64,000 nt of DNA from Desulfobulbaceae bacterium (GTDB taxonomy: Bacteria; Desulfobacterota; Desulfobulbia; Desulfobulbales; Desulfobulbaceae): positions 1 through 64,000 of the forward strand of contig JAMJFO010000007.1 in NCBI GenBank assembly GCA_023544645.1. Reading direction: 5' to 3'. Of this stretch, positions 54,664-58,089 are shown piece after piece. Position 1 is the first letter of the stretch. Every line of letters starts with the position of its first letter. The notes under the pieces are model-generated. The model saw only the letters and a list, made by a program, of their open reading frames with translations, searched no databases and had not been told where the DNA came from. Both the position numbers and the translations under genes were made by a program.

Positions 54664-54998
54664 TTCCGCTACACTCCGGCATCTCAATTTTCCCTTATCG
54701 TTTCCCCCTCCATTCGCTGCCAAAAAAATGATTTTTTTTAAAAGGCATTGGCTGGTTATTTGTTGAATTTTTTTGGTGCATTCCTCGGGTACGGATGGTA
54801 ATTGCTGATTTTGAAAGCCATTGACATGGCAGAAGGGTTTGACGTGAACGCGCAGCACGGCTGGAGATGGTAAGGATGTTCAATTATTCCCGGGCATTAC
54901 AATGAAATATGGCTGCCGGATGAGCTGCAGCTTCCGGCAACAGCCGTTCGGTAATTAGAGTGGGTTTGACTCGGTTTTGTGCATGAGGAGGTATGGGC
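54664..54998. other. Intergenic region before the LysW-like gene
   Basis: No gene is seen. A GC-rich hairpin TGCCGGA (54914-54920) with TCCGGCA (54933-54939) encloses a smaller AGCT-GC-AGCT stem; there is no T-tract. TTGACA-like boxes occur near 54823 and 54846 without a good -10. Promoter and regulation of the zinc ribbon-speB-speA group probably lie here. Confidence 0.45.
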
Positions 54999-55193
54999 GT
55001 GGGCAAGCGGAACAAGCGGTATGAAAAAGAGCATCGCGCCGGTCGGTGCGAACTATGTGATGGTGATGTTGAGTTGGAATTTTATGTGGAGAGAGGCGAT
55101 GTTGTCGCCTGCACCAACTGCGGGGCGGAATATGTGCTCAAGGCTCTCCAGCCGGTCCGTTTGAAGCTTATCGAGGAAGAGCCGGAGCCGTGA
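54999..55193 (+). CDS. LysW-like zinc-ribbon small protein
   Basis: 64-residue acidic-tailed protein. A basic N-terminus (GKRNKRYEKEHR) is followed by CELC and CTNCGAEY, a zinc ribbon. The spacing and the VERGDVVACTNCGAE and LQPVRL segments match the LysW amino-group carrier family by eye. LysW proteins end in EDWGE, whose last Glu carries the substrate. This one ends EEEPEP, so that residue is not terminal. The GTG at 54999 is 7 nt from GGAGG; the ATG at 54993 is only 1 nt away and is less likely. It lies 84 nt before speB. Confidence 0.7.
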   Translation: MGKRNKRYEKEHRAGRCELCDGDVELEFYVERGDVVACTNCGAEYVLKALQPVRLKLIEEEPEP

Positions 55194-55277
55194 ATCGGGT
55201 TTGCGTTGGCCGGGTAACCGATGGAAAAGAGAAGCGGCTTCAGGGTCCGGCAGCTTTGGGTTAAATAGGGGTGCGGC

Positions 55278-56123
55278 ATGAAATTTGGTGACTTTCCCGA
55301 ACAATATACAGGGTATGAGCAGTCGGCGATCATTGTTCTTCCCGTTCCGTACGACAATACTTCGACCTGGCTCAAAGGAGCGGACCGGGGGCCGGAGGCG
55401 CTGCTCAGGGCCTCCGCCCACCTGGAGCTGTATGATATTGAGACCGCCACCGAGGTGTTTCGCAGGGGGATATGCACTCTTGATCCGGTGGATTGCCCGC
55501 AGGATCCGGAGGAAATGGTTGAAGTGGTGCGGAAGAATGCCCTGGCGCATTTTCAGGCCGGTAAGTTTGTGGTCGGTCTGGGCGGCGAGCACTCGGTTTC
55601 CATTGGTCTGGCTCGTGCCGCGGCCGGCTGTTTCAGTGACCTGAGTGTCCTGCAGTTCGATGCCCACAGCGATCTGCGCGATTCATATCAAGGCAGCCGC
55701 TATAACCATGCCTGCGTCATGGCAAGGATCAATGAGCTGTCCAGTTCCGTGCAGGTCGGTATTCGAAGCATGGACCGCGAGGAGGTGGACAGGGTGGATC
55801 GTGATCGAGTGATCTTTGCCCATGATCTCCACAAATACGGGATGAATGCCGCCTCCGAGGCCCTGGAAATGTTAAGTGATACGGTGTATCTGACCATTGA
55901 CCTGGATGTGCTTGATCCATCGGTTATGCCGTCAACAGGAACGCCGGAGCCCGGCGGCCTGGACTGGTATACCCTGACCGGTCTTATCCGCAGGGTCGTC
56001 CGGGAAAAAAAGGTCATAGGCATGGATGTGGTGGAACTGCTGCCCCGGGAACATGATCCTGCTCCGGATTTTCTGGCAGCGAAGCTGATTTACCGAACCC
56101 TCAGCATGATATATGCCGCATAA
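55278..56123 (+). CDS. speB: Agmatinase
   Basis: 281-residue manganese ureohydrolase converting agmatine to putrescine and urea. Metal ligands: GGEHS, DAHSDLRD and DLDVLDPS. The YNHACVMARI segment fits agmatinase more than arginase. It overlaps the speA upstream frame region and is followed directly by speA, which makes its substrate. Arginase or another ureohydrolase is less likely in this context. Confidence 0.93.
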   Translation: MKFGDFPEQYTGYEQSAIIVLPVPYDNTSTWLKGADRGPEALLRASAHLELYDIETATEVFRRGICTLDPVDCPQDPEEMVEVVRKNALAHFQAGKFVVGLGGEHSVSIGLARAAAGCFSDLSVLQFDAHSDLRDSYQGSRYNHACVMARINELSSSVQVGIRSMDREEVDRVDRDRVIFAHDLHKYGMNAASEALEMLSDTVYLTIDLDVLDPSVMPSTGTPEPGGLDWYTLTGLIRRVVREKKVIGMDVVELLPREHDPAPDFLAAKLIYRTLSMIYAA

Positions 56124-56157
56124 CCGCAAACCTATACATTTATATGGTGGAGAGCAG

Positions 56158-58089
56158 ATGGGGAAAGATGTGACAGTTCCGGGAGCCCTTAACATGAGGG
56201 AGATGGCCAACGGGATCTACAATATTGAGGGGTGGGGTATAGGTTACTTCGATATCGATGATCAGGGTTTCATGAGGGTAAGCCCGTCCCAGGATCCGGA
56301 GCAGTCCATCAGGATCATCGACATTGTCCAGGAGGCCTATGATGAAGGGTTGCGGCCGCCATTGCAGATCCGTTTTCAGGACCTGCTGCGCCACCGGGTT
56401 ATCAGTCTCAATCAGGCATTTGCCGCGGCAGGAGAGTCTTTTGGCTACAAGGGAAGCTATTCCGGTGTTTTTCCGCTCAAGGTTAATCAGCTGCGCGAGG
56501 TTGTCGAGGAAATAATCGATGCCGGCGAACCGTTCAACTTCGGTCTGGAAGCGGGCAGCAAGCCTGAACTGCTTGCCGCGCTTTCCATGCATACCAATTA
56601 TGATTCATTGATTGTCTGCAACGGCTACAAGGATGAATATTTTATCCGGCACGCTCTGCACGGCACCCGGTTGGGTAAAAAAGTCGTCCTGGTTGCGGAA
56701 AAAATGGGAGAGATCAGGACTATTATAGAGATGGCCTCGGCCATGGGAGTGGAGCCCCTGATCGGTATGCGCATCCGGCTCAATGCCAAGGCTTCAGGCC
56801 AGTGGGGAGCTTCAGGGGGCAGCTCGGCCAAGTTCGGCCTGAGCACCGCTGAAATTCTTGAGGCCGTCAACCTGCTGCAGGAATCGGGTTTTGGCTCCTC
56901 CTTCAAGCTTCTTCATTTCCATATCGGTTCGCAGATCCCGGAGATCAGGGACATCAACCGGGCGGTCCGGGAAGGAGCCAGGTATTATGCCAAGTTGCGG
57001 CAGTACGGCTGCAATGTTGAGTATATTGATGTCGGCGGCGGCCTGGGAGTTGACTATGACGGATCGGCCAGTGTTTTCAGCTCGTCCATCAACTATAGTC
57101 TGCAGGAGTATGCCAACGACATCGTTTCGTCCATCGTGGATGTCTGCGGCGAGGAAAAGGTGCCGCATCCCAATATTATCAGTGAAAGCGGCAGGGCGCT
57201 TGTGGCGCATCACTCCATGATCGTGGTTGATGTTTTCGGCACCATTGAAAAAGCGGGTGTCGCCCCGCCAAAGGTGACAAATAAAAGCCATAAACTGGTC
57301 AGGCGCATGCAGGATATCAGCAGGAGGCTCAGTCCTGATACCCTGACCGAATGCTATCATGACCTGCTGTCCATTCATGAGCGGACCCAGTCCATGTTTC
57401 TGCTCGGCATGATGGATCTTGAGAGCAAAGGGGCGGTTGAAACCCTGTTCTGGAAGATTGCCGCGGAGATCGTCGCCCAGTACGAGAAGGAACCGTTTAT
57501 GCCCGAGGAAATTGCCGAGCTGAAAATCACACTTGCCGAGCAGTATATTTGTAATTTTTCGGTATTTCAATCCCTTCCCGACTACTGGGCCCTTGGCCAG
57601 CTCTTTCCCATTGTTCCTATTCACCGCCTCGACGAGGAGCCGACCCATGAGGCTACCATAGCGGATATTACCTGTGATTCGGATGGCAAGGTCAACAAGT
57701 TCATCGATCTGAAGGATGTGAAGGAGAGTCTGCCCTTGCATTCATTGACCGATGAGCCATATTTCATCGGCCTGTTCATGACCGGCGCCTATCAGGACGT
57801 AATGGGTGATCTGCACAATCTGTTCGGCCGGGCCAACGAAGTGCATGTCTACCTGGATCCCGACGAGGAGCAGGGATGGTACATCGAGGAGAAGGTCAGG
57901 GGTAGCAGCATCCTTGAGGTCCTGGAGATGAACCAGTATCACCGCAACCAGCTGGTCAAGGACATGAAAAGGCAGGTCGACAAGGCGATCAAGGCGGACG
58001 TTATCAAACCCAGCGCCGGCATTAAACTGCTCAATGCCTATGAAAAGGCCCTCAAGGATTATACCTACGTCTCGCCCGTGAAAAAGTAA
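56158..58089 (+). CDS. speA: Biosynthetic arginine decarboxylase
   Basis: 643-residue PLP-dependent decarboxylase of the SpeA alanine-racemase-fold type. The PLP Lys is in SGVFPLKVNQ; HFHIGSQIPEI and DVGGGLGVDYDGS bind the cofactor phosphate, and ESGRALVAHHS follows. The start at 56158 has GGAG 5 nt upstream; the frame extends to 56113 inside speB. It makes agmatine for SpeB, giving a two-step route to putrescine. It is 35 nt after the speB stop. Confidence 0.94.
   Translation: MGKDVTVPGALNMREMANGIYNIEGWGIGYFDIDDQGFMRVSPSQDPEQSIRIIDIVQEAYDEGLRPPLQIRFQDLLRHRVISLNQAFAAAGESFGYKGSYSGVFPLKVNQLREVVEEIIDAGEPFNFGLEAGSKPELLAALSMHTNYDSLIVCNGYKDEYFIRHALHGTRLGKKVVLVAEKMGEIRTIIEMASAMGVEPLIGMRIRLNAKASGQWGASGGSSAKFGLSTAEILEAVNLLQESGFGSSFKLLHFHIGSQIPEIRDINRAVREGARYYAKLRQYGCNVEYIDVGGGLGVDYDGSASVFSSSINYSLQEYANDIVSSIVDVCGEEKVPHPNIISESGRALVAHHSMIVVDVFGTIEKAGVAPPKVTNKSHKLVRRMQDISRRLSPDTLTECYHDLLSIHERTQSMFLLGMMDLESKGAVETLFWKIAAEIVAQYEKEPFMPEEIAELKITLAEQYICNFSVFQSLPDYWALGQLFPIVPIHRLDEEPTHEATIADITCDSDGKVNKFIDLKDVKESLPLHSLTDEPYFIGLFMTGAYQDVMGDLHNLFGRANEVHVYLDPDEEQGWYIEEKVRGSSILEVLEMNQYHRNQLVKDMKRQVDKAIKADVIKPSAGIKLLNAYEKALKDYTYVSPVKK

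Follow-up and report, generated by a model that had tools for sequence, protein, structure and literature searches.

The locus described here raises the question of why a gene for a small zinc-ribbon protein resembling LysW stands directly before the genes for agmatinase and arginine decarboxylase in a Desulfobulbaceae bacterium, and whether its product serves polyamine metabolism as a carrier or in another way. To our knowledge, all LysW-type proteins of studied function are covalent carriers. The window (the whole stretch of 64,000 nucleotides that was analysed) encodes the three genes on the same strand, with gaps of 84 bp between the LysW-like gene and speB and of 34 bp between speB and speA (Table 1), in agreement with the original prediction, which had placed a 64-residue open reading frame directly before this pair. 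The translation of the LysW-like gene is MGKRNKRYEKEHRAGRCELCDGDVELEFYVERGDVVACTNCGAEYVLKALQPVRLKLIEEEPEP, with a basic N-terminus (MGKRNKRYE). An in-frame ATG at 54993 lies just one base from the AGGAGG, and it is the GTG position that corresponds to the start in relatives and orthologues. The product of speB has the metal motifs of the arginase family (GGEHS, DAHSDLRD, and DLDVLDPS). Neither a sigma-54 site nor an Rfam match was found in the 335-bp gap upstream of the LysW-like gene, the Rfam search of the window stretch gave no match, and the counts of sigma-70 and terminator patterns in that stretch are at chance level.

Table 1. Features of the LysW-like/speB/speA locus in the window
Feature	Position	Strand	Remarks
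Gap 5' of the LysW-like gene, likely promoter region	54664-54998	+	335 bases; downstream of a metallo-beta-lactamase-fold (mbl) gene
Strong Shine-Dalgarno AGGAGG, from sequence	54986-54991	+	7 bases 5' of the GTG
LysW-like zinc-ribbon protein gene	54999-55193	+	GTG start; 64 aa; CxxC...CxxC; tail IEEEPEP
speB, agmatinase	55278-56123	+	281 aa; TIGR01230, 227 bits > 174.3
speA, biosynthetic arginine decarboxylase	56158-58089	+	643 aa; TIGR01273, 732 bits > 624.1; PRK05354, 825 > 369

Homology and fold of the LysW-like protein

By profile, by PDB sequence search, and by predicted fold, the window protein is a true LysW homologue. It scores 30.6 bits with the Pfam family Zn_ribbon_LysW (PF21344; cut-off 27; E = 2.5e-7), and the PDB sequence search gave the T. 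thermophilus LysW (3wwl; E = 8.6e-5). In the AlphaFold2 model, which was built from 51 sequences and has a mean pLDDT of 77, the ribbon core reaches 86-91, and LysW/ArgW chains take all of the top six places in a Foldseek search with this model (probability 0.98-1.00; TM (target) 0.65-0.82), with a clear gap below them and no other structure close. The relationship that had been read from the sequence at the outset is thus upheld, and the profile search places the protein in the LysW family rather than in an unrelated zinc-ribbon family. It resembles the LysW/ArgW carriers of T. thermophilus (3wwl), S. tokodaii (3vpb), and T. kodakarensis (5k2m) in its zinc-ribbon fold with CxxC...CxxC, and also in length, in core segments (PxxL after the ribbon), and in an acidic core. 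Orthologues from its own genus are about 60% identical, and the four cysteines are invariant in A3 and conserved in relatives.

Linkage to polyamine genes across the Desulfobulbia

Relatives were recovered by a profile search of contigs from 258 genomes spanning the class Desulfobulbia; a single-sequence scan gave none. Seventy genomes were positive, and after subtraction of the genuine LysW of G365, LysW-like proteins were present in 69 of the 258, with 1-6 copies each. Matches in G022, G060, G096, and G007 were set aside, since they are zinc-ribbon or other LysW-like proteins whose settings differ. The loci were mapped in 68 of the 69 genomes, and 87 LysW-like relatives were compared.

Adjacency of the LysW-like gene to polyamine genes is far above chance in these relatives. 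The genes for SpeA, SpeB, CASDH, or CANSDC lie in the same locus as the LysW-like gene in 35 of the 68 mapped genomes, with a median gap of 76 bp, and pot genes only are found beside it in 2 further mapped genomes (a pot match of 25% in G337 was left out of the count). Where both genes are present, the LysW-like gene is within 10 kb of speA in 17 of 62 genomes, compared with about 1 at most expected. SpeA itself occurs in 62 of the 69 genomes with a LysW-like gene and in 95 of the 189 without (Fisher 1.4e-9, uncorrected for shared ancestry). The arrangements are diverse, with about 10 gene orders that include lysW-speB-speA, lysW-speB-yitT-pot, speB-lysW-speA-CASDH-CANSDC, activator<>lysW-orf-speB-speA-CASDH-CANSDC, speA-CASDH-CANSDC-speB-lysW, lysW-orf-speA-CASDH-CANSDC-speB, CASDH-CANSDC-speA-speB-lysW, and lysW divergent from speA. 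This variety speaks against a single inherited block, and polyamine-linked members occur in all main sequence groups of the LysW-like proteins.

Within the family of the window organism, 37 of 74 genomes have a LysW-like gene. Most Desulfobulbus carry it directly upstream of a gene for an agmatinase that shares about 43% identity with the window SpeB; in several of them a gene for a YitT membrane protein comes after speB and is itself followed by potABCD, and in two (G315 and G329) the LysW-like gene is accompanied by yitT and potABCD with speB not beside them. The linkage is not universal. Neither polyamine genes nor an activator were seen near the LysW-like gene in 16 of the 68 mapped genomes, some of these cases being due to contig ends; four genomes (G349, G351, G354, and G356) have the LysW-like gene and an activator with no SpeA match, and the LysW-like gene is absent from many genomes that bear speA. 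The conserved adjacency to speAB anticipated from the window is borne out. That the protein could be a helper of polyamine metabolism had also been proposed, and the link to polyamine genes holds and is considerably wider than claimed, extending in relatives to CASDH, CANSDC, pot genes, and a sigma-54 activator; the carrier role proposed with it is not supported, as discussed below.

The sigma-54 activator and predicted promoters

A narrow-type sigma-54 activator is encoded in the LysW-like locus of 24 of the 68 mapped genomes. In the class, 16 genomes encode a close orthologue (at least 69% identity) of the activator in locus L114, and every one of these 16 has a LysW-like gene; relatives of this activator with 57-62% identity occur in five genomes, all lacking the LysW-like gene. 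Near-consensus -24/-12 sites (TGGCAC-N5-TTGCT) are predicted before 18 of the 87 LysW-like genes, mostly 55-85 bases upstream of the start, against an expectation of 1.4 when the background of these loci is taken as reference. Such sites are concentrated at genes with an activator in the locus (15 of 36, vs. 3 of 51 elsewhere). In L114, L131, and L137 the LysW-like gene is the first after the predicted site in a joint operon. In L128, L129, L130, and L133 the site is predicted before speA or CASDH, at the head of a polyamine operon that finishes with speB or speA-speB and then the LysW-like gene. Some Desulfobulbus loci are flanked by a sigma-54 regulator of the GAF type; it is of a different type and adjoins acetoin-dehydrogenase-like genes, and was not counted with the activator.

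It could be argued from these data that the protein is a transcription partner whose zinc ribbon contacts either nucleic acid or the sigma-54 activator and thereby makes expression of the pathway respond to polyamine status, especially as the LysW-like gene adjoins the conserved activator, often divergently. However, a close orthologue of the activator was not found in the window genome, in its genus, or in Desulfobulbus, though the LysW-like/polyamine pair is kept there, and no sigma-54 site was found at the window LysW-like gene; the activator is thus not needed for the role of the protein in the window genome and its genus. Moreover, the closest fold by Foldseek is LysW and not that of known nucleic-acid-binding ribbons. 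We regard a role as transcription partner as unlikely.

Dispensability and possible enzyme contacts

In two genomes of the window's own genus (G358 and G359) the speB-speA pair is intact and the LysW-like gene is absent, the mbl gene standing directly before speB. The LysW-like protein is therefore an accessory. It may act as a scaffold or by docking, but a fold prediction of the read-through LysW-SpeB polypeptide gave a pTM of 0.75, about what would be expected if SpeB alone (281 of the 376 residues) were confidently folded, with no sign of contact between the LysW-like and SpeB parts. The window SpeB (pI 4.9) and SpeA (pI 5.2) are both acidic, so that docking by charge on the acidic core of the LysW-like protein is not obvious.

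Agmatinase requires manganese, and the protein might accordingly be pictured as a metal helper for this enzyme or as a zinc/manganese buffer, a picture that suits the conserved cysteines and the fact that speB comes next both in the window and in the majority of Desulfobulbus. Yet a CxxC/CxxC ribbon normally has a structural role, the gene also lies next to CANSDC or speA, or beside pot genes without speB (G315 and G329), and SpeB is encoded without it in G358 and G359. Such a metal-related function seems to us improbable.

Absence of carrier features

By the tests available, the window protein falls outside the carrier family as this is defined, and carrier features are absent. Its tail, which ends in EEEPEP as first noted, has neither the C-terminal Glu nor the EDWGE motif. 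The NCBIfam LysW models are not passed (TIGR01206, 26.8 bits vs. a cut-off of 53.2; NF041070, 34.6 vs. 75 bits); as a positive control, the genuine LysW of G365, which is from the same order (L141, 170-328; tail EEEDWGE), does pass TIGR01206, at 59 bits. Glu is the final residue in only 5 of the 87 LysW-like relatives; most have an acidic tail, often with an aromatic residue close to the end, and the tails vary even inside the window genus (EEEPEP, KQDGT, and KQGGI). In further contrast to LysW/ArgW, no LysZ/Y/J/K genes lie beside the window gene, the LysW-like genes sit in polyamine operons, and the window's group has the extra basic N-terminus. The observation that no LysX is adjacent was confirmed, and a search of the window genome (G000) for LysX/ArgX found none: of 9 RimK-family matches only one is above the TIGR00768 cut-off, and this is the S6 ligase RimK (PRK10446, 465 > 331; LysX_arch, 127 < 275.6). 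In the Desulfobulbus genomes, no RimK-family protein is above the family cut-off. A RimK-like gene adjoining the LysW-like gene in G352 was rejected as LysX, as it is a RimB-RimK fusion.

The substrates of SpeA, SpeB, CASDH, and CANSDC are free small molecules, and consequently no carrier step is missing in the pathway. In published LysW and ArgW proteins the Glu at the end of the EDWGE tail is conjugated and required, and the E54A change in NgArgW abolishes function (PMC10433800). An amino-group carrier whose tail holds an amine such as agmatine or putrescine, attached by an unrecognised ligase, would fit the LysW fold and the acidic tails of most relatives with their aromatic residues, but the missing and unconserved attachment residue and the lack of a LysX/ArgX in the genome make it very improbable. 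The carrier idea of the original prediction was not sustained on these grounds, to which the free substrates of SpeA and SpeB and the two same-genus genomes without the LysW-like gene add further weight. That the LysW-like gene is a chance neighbour with an unrelated housekeeping role, as the genomes without linkage (16 of 68) and the many speA genomes lacking the gene might suggest, is already disfavoured and hardly credible in view of the variety of gene orders, the short median gap, and the predicted shared promoters.

A probable accessory of polyamine supply

We lean towards the view that the window protein is a LysW-descended zinc ribbon, no longer an amino acid carrier, that serves polyamine supply in the Desulfobulbales as a dedicated accessory protein. 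The part of this reading that makes it a polyamine accessory other than a carrier is likely to be correct. The LysW fold was probably repurposed as an accessory of polyamine supply with a regulatory role. As to how it might act, recognition of LysW-type carriers by their enzymes depends on charge (PMC9303977). Modulation by protein contact is accordingly the most natural reading, although we put this specific step forward tentatively. The zinc-ribbon surface, which in true LysW docks on enzymes, would then contact a protein partner, and this contact would modulate a polyamine enzyme, an uptake system, or the regulation of the pathway, in the manner of an antizyme or of feedback control. In the window, the LysW-like protein would be co-produced with agmatinase and arginine decarboxylase and would tune the output of putrescine. 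Antizyme-type control of polyamine enzymes offers a parallel, which is apt only if the regulatory reading is right and implies no sequence relation.

The Streptomyces AmCPs such as Vzb22 are likewise LysW-type proteins outside lysine and arginine synthesis (PMC9303977; PMC6225789); they belong to a biosynthetic cluster and their substrate is attached to the C-terminal Glu, which is absent in the window protein. The enzymes of the alternative spermidine pathway SpeA-CASDH-CANSDC-SpeB are encoded next to the LysW-like gene in relatives, and CASDH is also encoded by the window genome. No description of a LysW-like component of this pathway was found in the literature searched. Nor were reports found that join LysW with agmatinase, in a search that covered few subscription journals, so that earlier notice is possible, or that join carboxyspermidine with sigma54 in those spellings; the papers naming both LysW and spermidine appear from their titles and abstracts to be unrelated. 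The fold is thus a known one and those of its members that have been studied are carriers, but its setting here is new to the literature searched, which included few subscription journals. Conceivably, a family of LysW-derived zinc ribbons gave up the carrying of metabolites and came to regulate, as small proteins, both the synthesis and the uptake of polyamines, in several lineages together with a sigma-54 activator of their own, and this might constitute a bacterial polyamine control system not described before. If true, it would clearly exemplify the reuse of a carrier fold, with the LysW fold kept across an order for another task and tied to polyamine genes, and it would give a first handle on polyamine control in these sulfur-cycling bacteria.

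Other features of the loci

Several further features were seen in the loci of the relatives. A YitT-family membrane protein (PF02588, PF10035) is encoded after speB or after the LysW-like gene in L064, L065, L069, L070, L015, and L068, and in those Desulfobulbus loci its gene precedes potABCD where potABCD is present. A protein of about 90-100 aa with the pattern KxIxLxGIL...DxxxxGxxxxFxLxTDDExxYxL, which looks OB-fold-like by eye, is encoded close to the LysW-like gene and often separates it from the polyamine genes (L114, L116, L118, L129-L132, L137, L074, L076, L154, and L155); the copy in L129, the only one searched against Pfam, gave no match. Six LysW-like copies lie within about 40 kb in G404 (L117 and L118) and four or five in G389 (L116), where copies of different sequence groups are interleaved with activators and polyamine genes. 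In another family (f24), a LysW-like protein ending in EEEEK is followed by NlpC/P60-like and Mur-ligase-like proteins, named by eye (L019, 9160-11651; L022, 6364-8844), and these form a separate trio conserved in both genomes. Finally, a c-di-GMP-I riboswitch lies directly 3' of CANSDC in G388 (L114, 12806-12884).
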